Of a stretch of 64,000 nt of DNA, positions 4,850 to 51,640 are shown in pieces. The stretch comes from Conus ventricosus (lineage: Eukaryota > Mollusca > Gastropoda > Neogastropoda > Conidae): contig CM031620.1 in assembly GCA_018398815.1 (NCBI GenBank), forward strand, positions 67,918,260 through 67,982,259, read 5' to 3'. Under the pieces are notes generated by a model that saw only the letters and a list, made by a program, of their open reading frames with translations, ran no database searches and had not been told where the DNA came from. The first letter of the stretch is position 1. Every line of letters starts with the position of its first letter. Position numbers and translations under genes: made by a program.

Positions 4850-34682
<29,833 letters not shown>

Positions 34683-39841: not shown

Positions 39842-41357
39842 ATTACTGTTGGGCTATGTTTTGGCCTTGATAGTCCAGAAAACAACTATTTTTAGGCCAG
39901 CAAAGGGGCACATGACAGAAAACACTTGTACAATGTTTCCACTTGATATCCCTTTGGTGTCGAACGGCCAATTCTGACACATTGACACCTTAGGCCTGCC
40001 CTCAATCTTTTCCACTCGGTGGTGATCAATGGAGTCTGGCGATTGAGATTTCTGGTACTGCCTTGCTTCGCCCAGCTTTGCGTTTTCTGGAAGTAAATCC
40101 AGCACGAAGCTGTTTAGCGATGTTAACATGATGATGAAACCACAGGTGATCATGGGCCTTCTTTGGGGGTTGAGCGTGTGGTGACTTTTCCCAGGTGAGA
40201 AAGGCTTGAACAATGCACAGATTGGTCAAGAGTGGAAGATGTACCACCACCGTTTTTTTGTTTTGATGACCAACAGGATAGTAGGCACGGTACTGATCTG
40301 ACTTGTCAACACCACCCATGTACTTATACTCAGAGATGACTGTCGGTATCGCCTTTTTATTCATTGTTGTCATACCTGGAGGCTGATTGTTGCTCAGGAG
40401 ATAAATCTGACAGTTGTCTTTGTAGACTGTAGTAGCCATCAGTGAGTCTTTCTGCATTTGTATCAGGTCTCCATTTTCCTTCAGTCTGGCTATCTTGGCT
40501 TCCTGTGGCAGTCCCCTGTGGTTACGGTTGACTGTCGCACAGGCATATGTCCCATTCGTGGCCAGGTGTGTCATCAAAGGGACACTTGTGAAAAAGCGGT
40601 TGAAAATACAAGTGCCTGTTCTGGTTGTAGCATGGTGATGCCAGTTTGTCTACCACTTCATGGCCCAGACCGATATTTGTGTTTACACAGCTAGCACGAC
40701 TAGTGTAATGTCAAATACGACTAGTGTAATGTCAAATACGACACAATAGCTGGTAGTAGCATCACCCATTTCCCACAGCTTGATGCCCCATTTTGTTGGC
40801 TTGGCTGGCATACTGTTTGAAAAAACAATGCCACCCTTGAAACCTATCAATTCTCATTTCACGGCCGGGACAAGAATTGGCTTTGAACAAAGGGAGAATA
40901 AGATCGATAAATGTTCTTACCTTGTACAGAGTGTCATAATCAAAGTGATCACGCCCAGGTGTGTTGGACAAATCCCGAAGGTGGAAATATTGATTCAACT
41001 TGAAAAAGCGATTTTTAGGCGTGACACTGCTGATCCAGGAATCATCGAAACGTGGGTCACTAGACCAGTAGCACCACAGACGTGGCCGACGCTTTACTCC
41101 CCACATGATCAACAGAGAAAGATAGGCTCGCATCTTTTCAGGTGTGGTATAGAACCAAAGAGGGTCGGGTGCGCCCTTTGCGGCTTGTTTTTGTCTTGCA
41201 CGCCGGTTTGTTTCATCGGCAGCAGTCTTAAAAAAACAGAGTTACAAACAAAAAGAAAAAATCAAGTGTGTGTAGCAGTGTCGGGTAATGAATGAGCGGG
41301 TCCAGTGGGTTCCTGAAACTGAGGCACTTCTGCCATGTGACGAGTCGCCATGTTGTC
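39842..41357 (-). pseudogene. second piggyBac-type transposase, decayed
   Basis: Minus strand from MATRHMAEVPQFQEP (41357). It contains MRAYLSLLIMWGVKRRPRLW, NRFFKLNQYFHLRDLSNTPG, REMRID (first catalytic aspartate), FNRFFTSVPLMTHLATNGTY (where the family has FDRFFTS, so the second aspartate appears as asparagine), YKYMGGVDKSDQYRAYYPVG (third aspartate) and a Cys-rich end with FCHVPLCWPKNSC stopping near 39842. Stops and frame changes occur at about 41250, 40800, 40600 and 39950. It is a different subfamily from the copy at 302-3593. Confidence 0.87.
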
Positions 41358-41364
41358 TAACAGA

Positions 41365-41376
41365 GAATGTAAATAT
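41365..41376. repeat. left copy of the direct duplication flanking the satellite array
   Basis: GAATGTAAATAT here and at 50271-50282. The right-hand copy is the first of several GAATGTAAATATGTGA tandem units (to about 50360), so the duplication may be an insertion target or part of that small array. Confidence 0.75.
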
Positions 41377-44300
41377 AATGCTGAACAATTAAGTAGTGGG
41401 GGGAAAACAAGTGCAGGTTCACAATTCTTCAGTCGTTATAGTAATGACTTGGCAAAGATTTGAACTTTTAAAAAAAAAAAAAAAAAAACTGAAGATGAAG
41501 AAAATGGGGGAATATATTATAACTATGAGAAGCCCTTCACTAGCTGCCTGAGGGAACCATCATAATCTCTCTCGAAGGCACATTTATTTGTATTGCCTGC
41601 TCCAGGCTTCGTCCGCTGATCGGACTCATCAGGGGACACGGCGATTGTGTCTGTGCTCTTGTGTCAATAGAGACACACCACAGTCCATAATTCTGTGGTG
41701 TTCTCACCGCCAAGGTTCAAAAAAAGAATCCAAAGCACCCCAAAGCAGCCAGCGAAGGTAGTAATGGAACAAAACAAAGGTGTGGAGAGAAAAAAGTTGC
41801 TGAAAAACTAAAAGCAATTATTCAAGCAGTTATAAAATGTAAGGGACAATCTTTGAGCCTTATGCTTGAGGATCCATTCAAGGATGCAAGGGAGGTCAAA
41901 AGATATGGGACGTGATGAGTGGTCACACTCGCTGTTCAATAACCCAAGCATTGTGAGTGGCTAGAATTGTACAGAACAACCTTTACTGGATCTCTAAGAG
42001 ATGCAATCTCCCACTGATTGACCACAACAATGAAATGCTGAACAATTAAGTAGTGGGGGAAAACAAGTGCAGGTTCACAATTCTTCAGTCGTTATAGTAA
42101 TGACTTGGCAAAGATTTGAACTTTAAAAAAAAAAAAAAAAAAAAAATTGAGATGAAGAAAATGGGGGAATATATTATAACTATGAGAAGCCCTTCACTAG
42201 CTGCCTGAGGGAACCATCATAATCTTTTCTCGAAGGCACATTTATTTTGTATTCCCTGTCCTAGGCCTTTCGTCCGCTGGATCGGACTCATCAGGGAGGA
42301 CACGGTTTGATTTTTGTCTGTGCTCTTGGTGTAAATAGAGACACACCACAGTCCATAATTCTGTGGTGTTCTCACCGCAAGGGTTCAAAAAAAGAATCCA
42401 ACAGCACACCCCAAAGCAGCCAGCGAAGGGTAGTAAATGGAAAAAAACAAGGTGTGGAGAGGAAAAAAAGTTGCTAAAAAAACTAAAAGCATTATTCAAG
42501 CAGTATAAAATGTAAGGGACAATTTTTTGACCCTATGCTTGAGGATCATTCAAGGATGCAGGGAGGTCAAAAGATATGGGACAGTGTGAGTGGTCAGCTC
42601 TGCTGTTCAATAACCCAAGCATTGTGGTGGCTAAGAATTGTACAGAACAACCTTTACTTGGATCTCTTAAGAGATGCAATCTCCCACTGATTGACCAAAC
42701 AATAGAATGCTGAACAATTAAGTAGTGGGGGAAAACAAGTGCAGGTTCACAATTCTTCAGTCGTTATAGTAATGACTTGGCAAAGATTTGAACTTTAAAA
42801 AAAAAAAAAAAAAAAAAATTGAAGATGAAGAAAATGGGGGAATATATTATAACTATGAGAAGCCCTTCACTAGCTGCCTGAGGGAACCATCATAATCTCT
42901 CTCGAAGGCACATTATTTGTATTGCCTGCTCCTAGGCCTTTCGTCCGCTGGATCGGACTCATCAGGGAGACACGGCTGATTGTGTCTGTGCTCTTGGTGT
43001 CAAATAGAGACACACCACAGTCCATATTCTGTGGTGTTCTCACCGCCAAGGGTTCAAAAAAGAATCCAACAGCACCCCAAAGCACCCAGCGAAGGGTAGT
43101 AAATGGAACAAAACAAAGGTGTGGAGAGGAAAAAAGTTGCTGAAAAACTAAAAGCATTATTCAAGCAGTATAAAATGTAAGGGACAATCTTTGAGCCTAT
43201 GCTTGAGGATCCATTCAAGGATGCAAGGGAGGTCAAAAGATATGGGACAGTGTGAGTGGTCAGCTCTGCTGTTCAATAACCCCAAGCATTGTGAGTGGCT
43301 AAGAATTGTACAGAACAACCTTTACTTGGATCTCTTAAGAGATGCAATCTCCCACTGATTGACCAAACAATAGAATGCTGAACAATTAAGTAGTGGGGGA
43401 AAACAAGTGCAGGTTCACAATTCTTCAGTCGTTATAGTAATGACTTGGCAAAGATTTGAACTTTAAAAAAAAAAAAAAAAAAAAAAATTGAAGATGAAGA
43501 AAATGGGGGAATATATTATAACTATGAGAAGCCCTTCACTAGCTGCCTGAGGGAACCATCATAATCTCTCTCGAAGGCACATTTATTTGTATTGCCTGCT
43601 CCTAGGCCTTTCGTCCGCTGGATCGGACTCATCAGGGAGACACGGCTGATTGTGTCTGTGCTCTTGGTGTCAAATAGAGACAACCACAGTCCATAATTCT
43701 GTGGTGTTCTCCCCGCCAAGGGTTCAAAAAAAAGAATCCAACAGCACCCCCAAAGCAGCCAGCGAAGGGTAGTAAATGGAACAAAACAAAGGTGTGGAGA
43801 GGAAAAAAGTTGCTGAAAACTAAAAGCATTATTCAAGCAGTATAAAATGTAAGGGACAATCTTTGAGCCTATGCTTGAGGATCCATTCAAGGATGCAAGG
43901 GAGGTCAAAGATATGGGACAGTGTGAGTGGTCAGCTCTGCTGTTCAATAACCCAAGCATTGTGAGTGGCTAAGAATTGTACAGAACAACCTTTACTTGGA
44001 TCTCTTAAGAGATGCAATCTCCCACTGATTGACCAAACAATAGAATGCTGAACAATTAAGTAGTGGGGGGGAAAACAAGTGCAGGTTCACAATTCTTCAG
44101 TCGTTATAGTAATGACTTGGCAAAGATTTGAACTTTAAAAAAAAAAAAAAAAAAAAAATTGAAGATGAAGAAAATGGGGGAATATATTATAACTATGAGA
44201 AGCCCTTCACTAGCTGCCTGAGGGAGCCATCATAATCTCTCTCGAAGGCACATTTATTTGTATTGCCTGCTCCTAGGCCTTTCGTCCGCTGGATCGGACT

Positions 44301-46136
44301 CATCAGGGAGACACGGCCTGATTGTGTCTGTGCTCTTGGTGTCAAATAGAGACACCCCACAGTCCATAATTCTGTGGTGTTCTCACCGCCAAGGGTTCAA
44401 AAAAAGAATCCAACAGCACCCCAAAGCACCCAGCGAAGGGTAGTAAATGGAACAAAACAAAGGTGTGGAGAGGAAAAAAGTTGCTGAAAAACTAAAGCAT
44501 TATTCAAGCAGTATAAAATGTAAGGGACAATCTTTGAGCCTATGCTTGAGGATCCATTCAAGGATGCAAGGGAGGTCAAAAGATATGGGACAGTGTGAGT
44601 GGTCAGCTCTGTGTTCAATAACCCAAGCATTGTGAGTGGCTAAGAATTGTACAGAACAACCTTTACTTGGATCTCTTAGAGATGCAATCTCCCACTGATT
44701 GACCAAACAATAGAATGCTGAACAATTAAGTAGTGGGGAAAACAAGTGCAGGTTCACAATTCTTCAGTCGTTATAGTAATGACTTGGCAAAGATTTGAAC
44801 TTTAAAAAAAAAAAAAAAAAAAAATTGAAGATGAAGAAAATGGGGGAATATATTATAACTATGAGAAGCCCTTCACTAGCTGCCTGAGGGAACCATCATA
44901 ATCTCTCTCGAAGGCACATTTATTTGTATTGCCTGCTCCTAGGCCTTCGTCCGCTGGATCGGACTCATCAGGGAGACACGGGTGATTGTGTCTGTGCTCT
45001 TGGTGTCAAATAGAGACACACCACAGTCCATAATTCTGTGGTGTTCTCACCGCCAAAGGGTTCAAAAAAAGAATCCAACAGCACCCCAAAGCAGCCAGCG
45101 AAGGGTAGTAAATGGAACAAAACAAAGGTGTGGAGAGGAAAAAAGTTGCTGAAAAACTAAAAGCATTATTCAAGCAGTATAAAATGTAAGGGACAATCTT
45201 TGAGCCTATGCTTGAGGATCCATTCAAGGATGCAAGGGAGGTCAAAAGATATGGGACAGTGTGAGTGGTCAGCTCTGCTGTTAAATAACCCAAGCATTGT
45301 GAGTGGCTAAGAATTGTACAGAACAACCTTTACTTGGTTTCTTTAAGAGATGCAATCTCCCATGATTGACCAAACAATAGAATGCTGAACAATTAAGTAG
45401 TGGGGGAAAACAAGTGCAGGTTCACAATTCTTCAGTCGTTATAGTAATGACTTGGCAAAGATTTGAACTTAAAAAAAAAAAAAAAAAAAAAATTGAAGAT
45501 GAAGAAAATGGGGGAATATATTATAACTATGAGAAGCCCTTCACTAGCTGCCTGAGGGAACCATCATAATCTCTCTCGAAGGCACATTTATTTGTATTGC
45601 CTGCTCTAGGCCTTTCGTCCGCTGGATCGGACTCATCAGGGAGACACGGCTGATTGTGTCTGTGCTCTTGGTGTCAAATAGAGACACCACAGTCCATAAT
45701 TCTGTGGTGTTCTCACCGCCAAGGGTTCAAAAAAGAATCCAACAGCACCCCCAAAGCAGCCAGCGAAGGGTAGTAAATGGAACAAAACAAAGGTGTGGAG
45801 AGGAAAAAAGTTGCTGAAAAACTAAAAGCATTATTCAAGCAGTATAAAATGTAAGGGACAATCTTTGAGCCTATGCTTGAGGATCCATTCAAGGATGCAA
45901 GGGAGGTCAAAAGATATGGGACAGTGTGAGTGGTCAGCTCTGCTGTTCAATAACCCAAGCATTGTGAGTGGCTAAGAATTGTACAGAACAACCTTTACTT
46001 GGATCTCTTAAGAGATGCAATCTCCCACTGATTGACCAAACAATAGAATGCTGAACAATTAAGTAGTGGGGGAAAACAAGTGCAGGTTCACAATTCTTCA
46101 GTCGTTTATAGTAATGACTTGGCAAAGATTTGAACT

Positions 46137-46171
<35 letters not shown>

Positions 46172-49100
46172 AGATGAAGAAAATTGGGGGGAATATATTT
46201 ATAACTATGAGAACCCCTTCACTAGCTGCCTGAGGGAGCCATCATAATCTCTCTCGAAGGCACATTTATTTGTATTGCCTGCTCCTAGGCCTTTCGTCCG
46301 CTGGATCGGACTCATCAGGGAGACACGGCTGATTGTGTCTGTGCTCTTGGTGTCAAATAGAGACACACCCAGTCCATAATTCTGTGGTGTTCTCACCGCC
46401 AAGGTTCAAAAAAAGAACCCAACAGCACCCCCCAAAGCAGCCAGCGAAGGGTAGTAAATGGAACAAAACAAAGGTGTGGAGAGGAAAAAAGTTGCTGAAA
46501 AACTAAAAGCATTTTTCAAGCAGTATAAATGTAAGGGACAATCTTTGAGCTATGCTTGAGGATCCATTCAAGGATGCAAGGGAGGTCAAAAGATATGGGA
46601 CAGTGTGAGTGGTCAGCTCTGCTGTTAAATAACCCAAGCATTGGGGAGTGGCTAAGAATTGTACAGAACAACCTTTACTTGGATCTCTTAAGAGATGCAA
46701 TCTCCACTGATTGACCAAACAATAGAATGCTGAACAATTAAGTAGTGGGGGAAAACAAGTGCAGGTTCACAATTCTTCAGTCGTTATAGTAATGACTTGG
46801 CAAAGATTTGAACTTTAAAAAAAAAAAAAAAAAAAAATTGAAGATGAAGAAAATGGGGGGAATATATTATAACTATGAGAAGCCCTTCACTAGCTGCCTG
46901 AGGGAAACCATCATAATCTCTCTCGAAGGCACATTTATTTGTATTGCCTGCTCCTAGGCCTTTCGTCCGCTGGATCGGACTCATCAGGGAGACACGGCTG
47001 ATTGTGTCTGTGCTCTTGGTGTAAAATAGAGACACACCACAGTCCATAATTCTGTGGTGTTCTCACCGCCAAGGGTTCAAAAAAAGAATCCAACAGCACC
47101 CCCAAAGCAGCCAGCGAAGGGTAGTAAATGGAACAAAACAAAGGTGTGGAGGGAAAAAGTTGCTGAAAAAACTAAAAGCATTATTCAAGCAGTATAAAAT
47201 GTAAGGGACAATCTTTGAGCCTATGCTTGAGGATCCATTCAAGGATGCAAGGGAGGTCAAAAGATATGGGACAATGCGAGTGGTCAGCTCTGCTGTTCAA
47301 TACCCAAGCATTGTGAGTGGCTAAGAATTGTACAGAACAACCTTTACTTGGATCTCTTAAGAGATGCAATCTCCCACTGATTGACCAAACAATAGAATGC
47401 TGAACAATTAAGTAGTGGGGGAAAACAAGTGCAGGTTCACAATTCTTCAGTCGTTATAGTAATGACTTGGCAAAGATTTGAACTTTAAAAAAAAAAAAAA
47501 AAAAAAAAAATTGAAGATGAAGAAAATGGGGGAATATATTATAACTATGAGAAGCCCTTCACTAGCTGCCTGAGGGAACCATCATAATCTCTCTCGAAGG
47601 CACATTTATTTGTATTGCCTGCTCCTAGGCCTTTCGTCCGCTGGATCGGACTCATCAGGGAGACACGGCTGATTGTGTCTGTGCTTTGGTGTCAAATAGA
47701 GACACACCACAGTCCATAATTCTGTGGTGTTCTCACCGCCAAGGGTTAAAAAAAAGGGAATCCAACAGCACCCCAAAGCAGCCAGCGAAGGGTAGTAAAT
47801 GGAACAAAACAAAGGTGTGGAGAGGAAATAAGTTGCTGAAAAACTAAAAGCATTATTCAAGCAGTATAAAATGTAAGGGACAATCTTTGAGCCTATGCTT
47901 GAGGATCCATTCAAGGATGCAAGGGAGGTCAAAAGATATGGGACAGTGTGAGTGGTCAGCTCTGCTGTTCAATAACCCAAGCATTGTGAGTGGCTAAGAA
48001 TTGTAAAAGAACAACCTTTACTTGGATCTCTTAAGAGATGCAATCTCCACTGATTGACCAAACAATAGAATGCTGAACAATTAAGTGTGGGGGAAAACAA
48101 GTGCAGGTTCACAATTCTTCAGTCGTTATAGTAATGACTTGGCAAAGATTTGAACTTTAAAAAAAAAAAAAAAAAAATTGAAGATGAAGAAAAGGGGGGA
48201 ATATATTATAACTATGAGAAGCCCTTCACTAGCTGCCTGAGGGAACCATCATAATCTCTCTCGAAGGCACATTTATTTGTATTGCCTGCTCCTAGGCCTT
48301 TCGCCCTCTGGATCGGACTCATCAGGGAGACACGGCTGATTGTGTCTGTGCTCTTGGTGTCAAATAGAGACACACCACAGTCATAATTCTGTGGTGTTCT
48401 CACCGCCAAGGGTTCAAAAAGAAATCCAACAGCCCCCCCAAAGCAGCCAGCGAAGGGTAGTAAATGGAACAAAACAAAGGTGTGGAGAGGAAAAAAGTTG
48501 CTGAAAAACTAAAAGCATTATTCAAGCAGTATAAAATGTAAGGGACAATCTTTGAGCCTATGCTTGAGGATCCATTCAAGGATGCAAGGGAGGTCAAAAG
48601 ATATGGGACAGTGTGAGTGGTCAGCTCTGCTGTTCAATACCCAAGCATTGTGAGTGGCTAAGAATTGTACAGAACAACTTTACTTGGATCTCTTAAGAGA
48701 TGCAATCTCCACTGATTGACCAAAACAATAGAATGCTGAACAATTAAGTAGTGGGGGAAAACAAGTGCAGGTTCACAATTCTTCAGTCGTTATAGTAATG
48801 ATTTGGCAAAGATTTGAATTTTAAAAAAAAAAAAAAAAAAAAATTGAAGATGAAGAAAATGGGGGGGAATATATTATAACTATGAGAAGCCCTTCACTAG
48901 CTGCCTGAGGGAACCATCATAATCTCTCTCTCGAAGGCACATTTATTTGTATTGCCTGCTCCTAGGCCTTTCGTCCGCTGGATCGGACTCATCAGGGAGA
49001 CACGGTGATTGTGTCTGTGCTCTTGGTGTCAAATAGAGACACACCACAGTCCATAATTCTGTGGTGTTCTCACCGCCAAGGGTTCAAAAAAGAATCCAAC

Positions 49101-50270
49101 AGCACCCCAAAGCAGCCAGCGAAGGGTAGTAAATGGAAAAAAACAAAAGGTGTGGAGAGGAAATAGTTGCTGAAAAACTAAAAGCATTATTCAAGCAGTA
49201 TAAAATGTAAGGGACAATCTTTGAGCCTATGCTTGAGGATCCATTCAAGGATGCAAGGGAGGTCAAAAGATATGGGACAGTGTGAGTGGTCAGCTCTGCT
49301 GTTCAATAACCCAAGCTTTGTGAGTGGCTAAGAATTGTACAGAACAACCTTTACTTGGACTCTTAAGAGATGCAATCTCCCACTGATTGACCAAACAATA
49401 AAAATGCTGAACAATTAAGTAGTGGGGGAAAACAAGTGCAGGTTCACAATTCTTCAGTCGTTATAGTAATGACTTGGCAAAGATTTGAACTTTAAAAAAA
49501 AAAAAAAAAAAATTGAAGATGAAGAAAATGGGGGAATATATTATAACTATGAGAAGCCTTCACTAGCTGCCTGAGGGAACATCATAATCTCTCTCGAAGG
49601 CACATTTATTTGTATTGCCTGCTCCTAGGCCTTTCGTCGCTGGATCGGACTCATCAGGGAGACACGGCGGGATTGTGTCTGTGCTCTTGGTGTCAAATAG
49701 AGACACACCACAGTCCATAATTCTGTGGTGTTCTCACCCCCAAAGGGTTCAAAAAAGAATCCAACAGCACCCCCAAAGCAGCCAGCGAAGGGTAGTAAAT
49801 GGAACAAAACAAAGGTGTGGAGAGGAAAAAAGTTGCTGAAAAACTAAAAGCATTATTCAAGCAGTATAAAATGTAAGGGACAATCTTTGAGCCTATGCTT
49901 GAGGATCCATTCAAGGATGCAAGGGAGGTCAAAAGATATGGGACAGTGTGAGTGGTCAGCTCTGCTGTTCAATAACCCAAGCATTGTGAGTGGCTAAGAA
50001 TTGTACAGAACAACCTTTACTTGGATCTCTTAAGAGATGCAATCTCCCACTGATTGACCAAACAATAGAATGCTGAACAATTAAGTAGTGGGGGAAAAAC
50101 AAGTGCAGGTTCACAATTCTTCAGTCGTTATAGTAATGACTTGGCAAAGATTTGAACTTTAAAAAAAAAAAAAAAAAAAAAATTGAAGATGAAGAAAATG
50201 GGGGGGAATATATTATAACTATGAGAAGCCCTTCACTAGCTGCCTGAGGGAACCATTCATAATCTCTCTC
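41377..50270 (-). repeat. ~668-bp tandem satellite with a hammerhead core in every full unit (retrozyme-like)
   Basis: Units begin (at AATGCTGAACAATTAAGTAG) at 41377, 42034, 42706, 43374, 44044, 44714, 45381, 46047, 46726, 47396, 48069, 48732, 49403 and 50069. There are thirteen full units and a partial last one ending at 50270. Copies are nearly identical apart from single-base indels and an A-run of about 18-25. Each full unit has one hammerhead-like motif on the minus strand (near 41605, 42264, 42936, 43605, 44276, 44942, 45609, 46289, 46958, 47629, 48296, 48965 and 49629). Minus-strand open frames of 60-145 codons arise in every unit but are disrupted differently in each, so I do not treat them as genes. 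Confidence 0.95.
43566..43643 (-). ncRNA. hammerhead ribozyme, representative copy (unit 4)
   Basis: Minus strand: CTGATGA, stem II GTCC-GATCCAGC-GGAC, then GAAA. These are the two invariant core strands with a perfect 4-bp stem II. Downstream, AGGC can pair with GCCT (stem III, ~26-nt loop), leading to a U-U/C cleavage point in GCCTTCGAGAG. Stem I pairs TCTCC before the core with GAGA after the cut, with a C-C mismatch at its base. All three stems of a type I layout can therefore be drawn, though stems I and III are weak. The same motif is intact in about nine other units; units 1, 6, 11 and 13 have base losses or changes in stem II or the core. Confidence 0.75.
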
Positions 50271-50360
50271 GAATGTAAATATGTGAGAATGTAAATATGT
50301 GAGAATGTAAATATGTGAGAATATGTGAGAATGTAAAATATGTGAGAATGTAAATATGTG
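50271..50360. repeat. short tandem repeat GAATGTAAATATGTGA
   Basis: Five or six copies of a 16-bp unit with small variants lie directly at the right edge of the satellite. Confidence 0.9.
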
Positions 50361-50692: not shown

Positions 50693-51202
50693 TTATAGCC
50701 CATTAATTAATTCTTTAAATTCACTGTTTTTTCCAACTGAGATTAATCGATAATCGCAAAATCCTGCCCTAGTTGATGGCAAAACCTTTAAAACTGTAGA
50801 CGGGTAGCCATCAAACAAATTAGTATCTGTTCTTAACTGTTGTAAATGAACATACAACATTGGGTTCACAAGAAAATCAGATGGTTTATTACCTTCAAAT
50901 TTATAAACATCTTCTCTTGTACTAAATCTATAAGTTCTATTGCTACCGTGGAAGCCTAAGATTCTTGCAAGCCCCTTAGGAAAAGTATACTCTCTTCTTT
51001 CTTCTAGTGGGAAATGTATAGTAATTCTGAGGTTTGCTTCGTTAATTTTTAACAATATACCATATTCGCCAAGTACTTCTTTTATTAAAGAACAAAAGTT
51101 GTAGTAACCATCAGGTATTTGCACATTAGTTATTTGATTGCCCGCCCCGTTACTAATATTGATCCAGTTATTTTGGGCTTCTTCAGATACGTTAGCCCAC
51201 AT
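50693..51202 (-). CDS. uncharacterised 169-residue protein, possibly virus-like or Maverick-like structural
   Basis: Open frame from 51202 to a stop at 50693. It has VQIPDGYYNFCSLIKEVLGE (about residue 28), a short beta-rich stretch, FPKGLARILGF (about 77), FLVNPMLYVHL (about 111) and STVLKVLPSTRAGFCDYRL. The order IPxGYY, a LxxILGF motif and a late LYVxL strand recalls minor capsid or penton-type proteins of Maverick/Polinton elements and related viruses. I recognise the pattern, not a specific family member. Upstream codons without a start continue to about 51240, so it may be 5' incomplete. A decayed paralogue lies at 53090-53740. Confidence 0.4.
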   Translation of the reverse strand: MWANVSEEAQNNWINISNGAGNQITNVQIPDGYYNFCSLIKEVLGEYGILLKINEANLRITIHFPLEERREYTFPKGLARILGFHGSNRTYRFSTREDVYKFEGNKPSDFLVNPMLYVHLQQLRTDTNLFDGYPSTVLKVLPSTRAGFCDYRLISVGKNSEFKELINGL

Positions 51203-51640
51203 AACTTTAAAGCCAATTTCTTTAAGGGCAATTCTACAACTCCCGCGCCAATGGGAATTGTCAGCAAAAACGCTGATTTCTGCGGCAGTAAAATTTGCTT
51301 TCCGCGAAAACGAAATTGCGTCCGCGAAAAAAAAAATCGGGGGTACAAAAAATATAAAGCACCGGTTTTAGCTGTTGCTGAACTGGTCTCGGCTGGCCTA
51401 GACCAAGTTATACTAACGCGAGCGTTATCTCGTTCTCTGTTCTCGTTCTCGCGGAAGTTTGGGTATGGACGATCGAGACTATTGCAGAACGCGAGCGTAC
51501 TGTGTTTGCGTGCTGCGAACGCCTGCCTCAGTTACCCGAATCGCCAGCAACAGCAGCTATTAACTCTCGCGGGCAGCCGAAATTTGTGAATGTCGTGACT
51601 TTCTGCGCATGAGCAAACTTTGAACAGGTGAGTTTTCAAC

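Follow-up and report, generated by a model that had tools for sequence, protein, structure and literature searches.

An 8.9-kb Hammerhead Repeat Array in Conus ventricosus as the Likely Insertion of a Dispersed, Retrozyme-Like Mobile Element

The array and its hammerhead motif

A 64,000-nt stretch of the Conus ventricosus genome (assembly GCA_018398815.1, contig CM031620.1, positions 67,918,260 to 67,982,259 of the forward strand) was analyzed and is referred to here as the window, position 1 being its first letter. It contains a tandem array at 41377..50270 (minus strand), termed family A here, in which a hammerhead ribozyme motif recurs on the minus strand of units of ~668 bp. BLAST with one unit recovered 13 full units, at 93.9–97.9% identity to the reference unit, and one partial unit, for a total of 13.32 units, with a unit GC of 0.41 (below 50%). 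The core motif CTGATGA occurred 13 times on the minus strand between 41626 and 49657 at a spacing of ~668 bp; across the whole window it was matched 26 times, against a mean of 9.6 in shuffled sequence, and none of 100 shuffles reached 26. The edges were set by a 12-nt target-site duplication, ATATTTACATTC, whose 5′-side copy lies at 50271..50282 and whose 3′-side copy lies at 41365..41376 (both minus strand). Because this duplication flanks both sides, the 8.9-kb array looks like one insertion, likely of a dispersed mobile element, with the caution that the 5′ flank is a 16-bp minisatellite holding identical letters. The original prediction, made from the letters of this stretch alone, had described 13 tandem ~668-bp units with a hammerhead core at 41377..50270, and it agrees with our results in both unit number and boundaries.

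The typical unit presents, in order, CTCC just upstream, CTGATGA, GTCC, an 8-nt loop, GGAC, GAAA and GGCCTAGGAG just downstream. The RNA reading gives a type I hammerhead. Its stem I is CUCC/GGAG, extended past an internal loop (GUGU/CA) by GCC/GGC; its stem II is GUCCG/CGGAC; and its helix III is a lone A-U pair around the palindrome GGCC. The predicted cut follows CUA, between GGCCUA and GGAG. The original prediction had drawn stems I and III around a cleavage point; stem III was corrected to the single A-U pair with this cut. A stem III drawing with the cut between CCUUC and GAGAGAG, which would have fallen at the array 5′ boundary, was dropped, since its stem I fails and the GGCCUA/GGAG junction gives a clean GGAG/CUCC pairing.

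A strict descriptor, requiring CTGANGA, a stem II with 3 bp or more, GAAA, a stem III, NUH and a stem I with 4 bp or more, was matched by nine of the 13 units and by one further, unrelated weak site at 7510, and it gave no matches on five mononucleotide shuffles of the window. Intact hammerheads that pass the descriptor lie, on the minus strand, at 48959..48999, 47622..47662, 46951..46991, 46282..46322, 44270..44310, 43599..43639 and 42929..42969, the last with its predicted cut between 42933 and 42932. Two more units pass with changes in stem II: at 49621..49661 a 1-nt deletion shortens it, and 48289..48329 carries a stem II variant. The remaining four, at 45639, 44971, 42294 and 41632, fail through small indels. 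These are a 1-nt deletion past the predicted cut (45604..45643), a shortened GAAA (44936..44975), indels within and beside stem I (42258..42298) and several deletions (41600..41636), all on the minus strand. The claim that every full unit holds CTGATGA, stem II and GAAA in hammerhead order, in places slightly damaged, was therefore borne out. Over the window and the fetched loci described below, the descriptor matched 91 segments.

Folding and alignment were used to judge the motif. Two 47-nt molecules folded without constraint gave a double hammerhead joined by a 6-bp AGGCCU helix, at −33.5 kcal/mol compared with twice −12.3 for the monomers, a gain of 8.9 kcal/mol. The active form predicted by this modeling is likely a dimer held through the AGGCCU palindrome, which the original prediction did not foresee. 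In 26 alignment rows picked for variety, 94.9% of pair cells hold, compared with at most 50.2% for slid structures, and three of 500 shuffles reached 94.9%. Covariation was weak: a single pair changed at both of its positions, and as many double changes turned up in 347 of 500 shuffles. That pair lies in stem II and is C-G instead of U-A in three rows and U-G in two, a result that hinges on the alignment placement of an inserted C.

Dispersed copies and the template of the arrays

The motif recurs in independent copies elsewhere in the genome, an expectation on which the original prediction had staked itself. The exact 27-nt core was found 4,338 times in the 3.52-Gb genome, whereas its reversed control was found 0 times, and the 24-nt 3′ tail was found 4,052 times. 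A 37-mer at up to 3 mismatches gave at least 8,000 matches, a round figure that suggests a ceiling and is not relied on here. Eighty loci were fetched, of which L009–L080 were used. Among 49 family A insertions, window included, that carry the hammerhead region and have a readable 3′ end, 46 end no more than 6 nt from unit position 227; numbering begins at the predicted cut, which puts the common 3′ end 227 nt past the cut. The exceptions are L013 (minus), L025 and L074; L024 and L042 were unreadable, and family B rows (a related repeat, treated below), three in L013 and L066 plus, were excluded from the count. In the window array this 3′ terminal tail, ending TTCAGCA, lies at 41379..41402 (minus strand) and marks the putative start site of reverse transcription. 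No A-tail was seen at the insertion 3′ ends. The 5′ ends, by contrast with the common 3′ end, are spread over the unit, with some departure from uniformity (Kolmogorov–Smirnov p = 0.026).

Sixty complete insertions were compared for their targets and lengths. Outside simple repeats, target-site duplications of 9–16 nt flank 11 of them, against a mean of 0.7 and a maximum of 4 in 200 trials of random flank pairing. A (TA)n run of at least 10 nt adjoins 37 of the 60, compared with 15 of the 1,717 windows that served as background from the wider flanks. For most insertions next to (TA)n, a duplication is indistinguishable from the repeat. Just over half (32/60) are shorter than about one unit, and one has its 5′ end no more than 3 nt from the predicted cut, where 0.6 would be expected. 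Among the 28 insertions that span about one turn or more, six end 12–37 nt past a whole turn, against 1.1 expected (P = 6e-4, for a stop range chosen after the data were seen), as if copying stalled on reaching its own start. These are L009, L011, L020, L028, L030 and L044, and three of them stop at the same 1–2 nt.

Arrays appear to derive from one template each. A tree was built from 52 full units, drawn from the window and 25 loci, and it placed all 12 insertions with at least two full units as single clades; the multi-unit loci were taken as clusters among the first 100 sites listed on one contig. Support by the Shimodaira–Hasegawa-like approximate likelihood ratio test (SH-aLRT) was at least 95 for 11 array clades and 92 for L030. 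Locus labels changed 11 times on the tree, the minimum, compared with a mean of 23.3 when labels were shuffled, and none of 200 shuffles was as low. Median divergence was 1.6% within the other arrays and 1.9% within the window array, compared with 7.5% between insertions. The sequence reads through position 227 without a break between successive units, so the start site lies within the template. With one of 60 insertions starting near the predicted cut (0.6 expected), cut linear monomers are therefore not the usual template.

Family B and Penelope-like elements

Family B is a second hammerhead family, related to family A, with a unit of ~733 bp in L013 and 3,287 core matches at no more than 2 mismatches. 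Its 3′ site lies near position 380 in L013 and at 383 in the window, where a 5′-truncated copy occupies 27433..27745 (plus strand). Beside this copy lie a degraded reverse transcriptase (26286-26696) and further remnants that resemble transposons. A match of unit positions 140-239 to the window at 27507, near that reverse transcriptase fragment, had been considered as a LINE (long interspersed nuclear element) 3′ end; it proved to be the family B copy. Among the first 100 sites listed, family B neighbors within 4 kb were head-to-head in 16 cases and tail-to-tail in none (p = 3e-5). At L013:2214-4711, a family B array consists of two opposed halves joined head to head, and its outer 3′ ends, at positions 347 and 380, lie ~33 nt apart in the unit, which resembles the pair of start sites and the "tail" reported for Penelope-like elements (PLEs). 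Family A, by comparison, rarely pairs.

The window also carries a PLE copy with a GIY-YIG end at 12360..13054 (minus strand), proposed here as the kind of element that would supply the enzyme. It is flanked by a 12-nt duplication, GGCAATTCATTA, at 12348-12359 and 13055-13066, and on its far side lies an inverted stretch of the element's 3′ end. A hammerhead-like CTGAAGA...GAAA motif, identified by eye, lies directly past the stop codon at 12466-12438. The GIY-YIG frame gave 151 matches from the 150 scored of 5,490 genome candidates, and PLEs are accordingly numerous. Loci L034 and L035 each matched both reverse transcriptase and GIY-YIG; the Pfam cut-off was reached by the L034 GIY-YIG match alone. 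The sequence common to these two loci ends shortly past a hammerhead-like CTGAAGA...GAAA (by eye), and L034 carries an inverted 3′ piece, as does the window PLE copy. In the Anolis system, purified PLE protein is described as starting reverse transcription internally at two nearby sites, cutting AT-rich DNA and extending both strands (PMC11167929).

Other features of the window were noted in passing. A piggyBac-type transposase (DDE_Tnp_1_7) in two pieces (40026-41241, minus) adjoins the 3′ side of the array, and a 224-aa open frame (50693-51367, minus), with neither a Pfam match nor a convincing PDB match, lies beside its 5′ side. At 16535-18443, a fragment that looks by eye like the end of a PLE reverse transcriptase (no Pfam match) is found beside two arrays of the same 52-bp minisatellite (16862-17112 and 17789-18443). 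A ~37-bp minisatellite unit, ACATAGTGAATTGTGGGTGCC..., likewise forms two separate arrays (32386-32801 and 34150-34565). An MCM6-like exon at 5279-5641 (plus; best PDB match human-type MCM6, E = 1e-26) indicates that a host gene starts nearby.

Origin of the copies and comparison with known systems

From the directly observed hammerhead layout, dispersed copies, common 3′ end, scattered 5′ ends, duplications, (TA)n association and single-clade arrays, we infer, with a probability of roughly 60%, that family A is a retrozyme-type non-autonomous retroelement whose self-cut RNA circles are copied by a PLE protein from a fixed internal site over several laps, giving tandem arrays. Transcripts of the 668-nt repeat would cut themselves at the type I hammerhead, most likely as dimers, and the cut RNA would be ligated into a circle. 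Target-primed reverse transcription would then begin inside the circle at the fixed site, position 227, and the reverse transcriptase would run several laps round it to leave a tandem array. A circular template fits both the internal start and the rarity of starts at the cut. A Penelope-like protein is likely the mobilizer, to judge from the traits that these hammerhead repeats hold in common with PLEs, namely an internal start past a minimal hammerhead, AT-rich targets and outward 3′ ends, the last mainly in family B. Each array could further be regarded as a lap counter (13 here) of a PLE reverse transcriptase that sets out each time from one internal site on a ribozyme-made circle and whose cDNA is then sealed into DNA, with the genome holding thousands of fossil rolling-circle products and the hammerhead serving to make an endless template. 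We consider this extension evenly poised between right and wrong; it is weakened because the Anolis PLE uses unprocessed RNA as template and because family A shows few outward ends.

A number of results weigh against the proposed mechanism. No sequence similarity was found between the family A unit and the sampled PLE family (L034–L036), no autonomous partner sharing the family A tail was found, and no Pfam domain, including the reverse transcriptase and GIY-YIG frame of an autonomous PLE, was matched in the two longest frames of the unit. The idea that the unit is a PLE pseudo-LTR (long terminal repeat) accordingly gained no support. The PLE at L035 lacks an inverted end. Outward 3′ ends in family A were seen at L075 only (1/60), and family A neighbors were head-to-head once and tail-to-tail once in the tail list and 0 versus 0 in the hammerhead list. 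The covariance-model check suggested with the original prediction came out negative: Rfam returned no hammerhead at the gathering score in the window and none on the array at E up to 10, and the best hammerhead score, on a 151-nt stretch, was 14.4 bits against a threshold of 48.5, perhaps owing to the minimal helix III. A lone molecule favors a competing AGACAC/GUGUCU hairpin (probability 0.61–0.71, with stem I at ~0.25). The predicted circular unit is 53% paired (z −0.64 over 60 shuffles) and thus not unusually structured.

The main alternative to a circle keeps the element and changes the template, which would be an uncut multimeric transcript of an existing genomic array, with the hammerhead irrelevant to copying. 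As described for Anolis (PMC11167929), hammerhead mutants of the PLE still insert, the main substrate is unprocessed RNA and PLE transcripts are themselves multimeric in the scheme given, so circles need not be the template; copies of family A also run across intact hammerheads. An uncut multimer transcribed from a uniform source array could likewise account for near-identical units. Against this, all 12 arrays are single clades and the young L030 and L031 have nearly identical units, which would need very uniform source arrays, and the six stops just past a whole turn exceed expectation, in a range defined post hoc. We regard an uncut template as unlikely. Equally unlikely, in our estimate, is a hammerhead element mobilized by a LINE-type reverse transcriptase instead of a PLE. 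The 9–16-nt duplications, the truncated 5′ ends and the fixed position of the 3′ end are also in keeping with LINE-driven short interspersed nuclear elements (SINEs), and LINE-type reverse transcriptase remnants are present (the RVT_1 match at 26286-26696, below the Pfam cut-off). The start, however, is internal to a continuing unit, the A-tail is missing from the 3′ ends seen, the targets are (TA)n, and copies of family B have outward-pointing 3′ ends on either side, like the window PLE copy and L034.

Spread at the DNA level, in which a classical tandem satellite expands and is homogenized by unequal crossing-over or circular DNA with the hammerhead as a passenger, is very improbable. Divergence within arrays is low and four of the 13 window hammerheads are damaged, as such a satellite would allow, but the thousands of copies are dispersed, just over half of the complete insertions are under about one unit, and they share a 3′ end, scattered 5′ ends and duplications, instead of being confined to long local arrays without defined ends. 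Of the substitution columns in the window array, 87 are confined to a single unit and 19 are shared, several of the 19 being adjacent and resembling misplaced indels; part of the 92 gap-containing columns of the same alignment may be sequencing error. The term satellite in the original prediction thus holds for the tandem arrangement and not for a purely local repeat, as the array appears to be a single insertion of a dispersed element with a fixed 3′ end and 5′ truncation. We give as little credence to a dead family, in which the motif descends from an active hammerhead and most copies, window array included, no longer cut. Copies located through their tail instead of the hammerhead often have broken cores or cut sites (e.g., L047, L059, L061 and L063) and an Rfam score is lacking, yet young arrays have nearly identical units and intact cores.

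No prior description of the family A element was found in a limited search of the retrozyme, hammerhead, PLE and mollusc repeat literature. Plant LTR retrozymes resemble it in being non-coding, in carrying hammerheads and in having ~700 nt between them; unlike family A, they are described as having type III hammerheads, LTRs, a primer-binding site and 4-bp duplications (PMC7761336). PLEs with minimal hammerheads share the internal start past the hammerhead and AT-rich targets, and they extend both strands, comparable to the outward 3′ ends of family B, in the accounts drawn on here (PMC11167929, PMC7761336). They differ in that the family A unit has neither a reverse transcriptase nor a GIY-YIG domain and no sequence in common with the sampled PLE family. 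Amphibian hammerhead repeats (the newt satellite and HHR_Amex1) are alike in the one-pair helix III, the palindromic tetraloop and the expected dimer, and axolotl HHR_Amex1 and newt-type hammerheads are reported to cleave poorly alone and better as dimers (PMC7229834). Their unit is ~330 nt compared with 668 here, and the likeness noted here is one of architecture.

The closest comparison is with metazoan non-LTR retrozymes, which, as described in PMC7229834, share with family A a type I hammerhead, low-GC tandem units ranging from dimers to long arrays, duplications of more than 4 bp, the lack of a detected coding region and co-occurrence with PLEs. Their units are ~170–400 nt, so the original prediction was right that this unit exceeds the usual animal size; at 668 nt, family A falls outside ~150–450 bp, and its predicted circle is not highly self-paired. 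The label retrozyme-like is consequently sound for the type I layout, tandem units, low GC, duplications and thousands of copies, and less so for the unit length, Rfam threshold and predicted circle structure. Because of these three differences, family A is better considered a variant of animal retrozymes than a plain member, and its 668-nt unit extends the range of sizes for ribozyme repeats in animals. For the movement of animal retrozymes, Cervera and de la Peña proposed in 2020 that the circles are reverse-transcribed, with PLEs as a strong candidate, and the portion of that paper used here offers no direct evidence (PMC7229834). The copies described here preserve a fixed point at which copying starts, the targets that are favored, arrays that each stem from a single template and, for family B, outward 3′ ends. 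This record narrows the choice of mobilizer and brings the circle model within reach of a test that uses a single purified protein and a single RNA. The fixed internal 3′ end, the (TA)n association and the single-template arrays measured for family A go beyond the description of metazoan retrozymes in that portion of PMC7229834.

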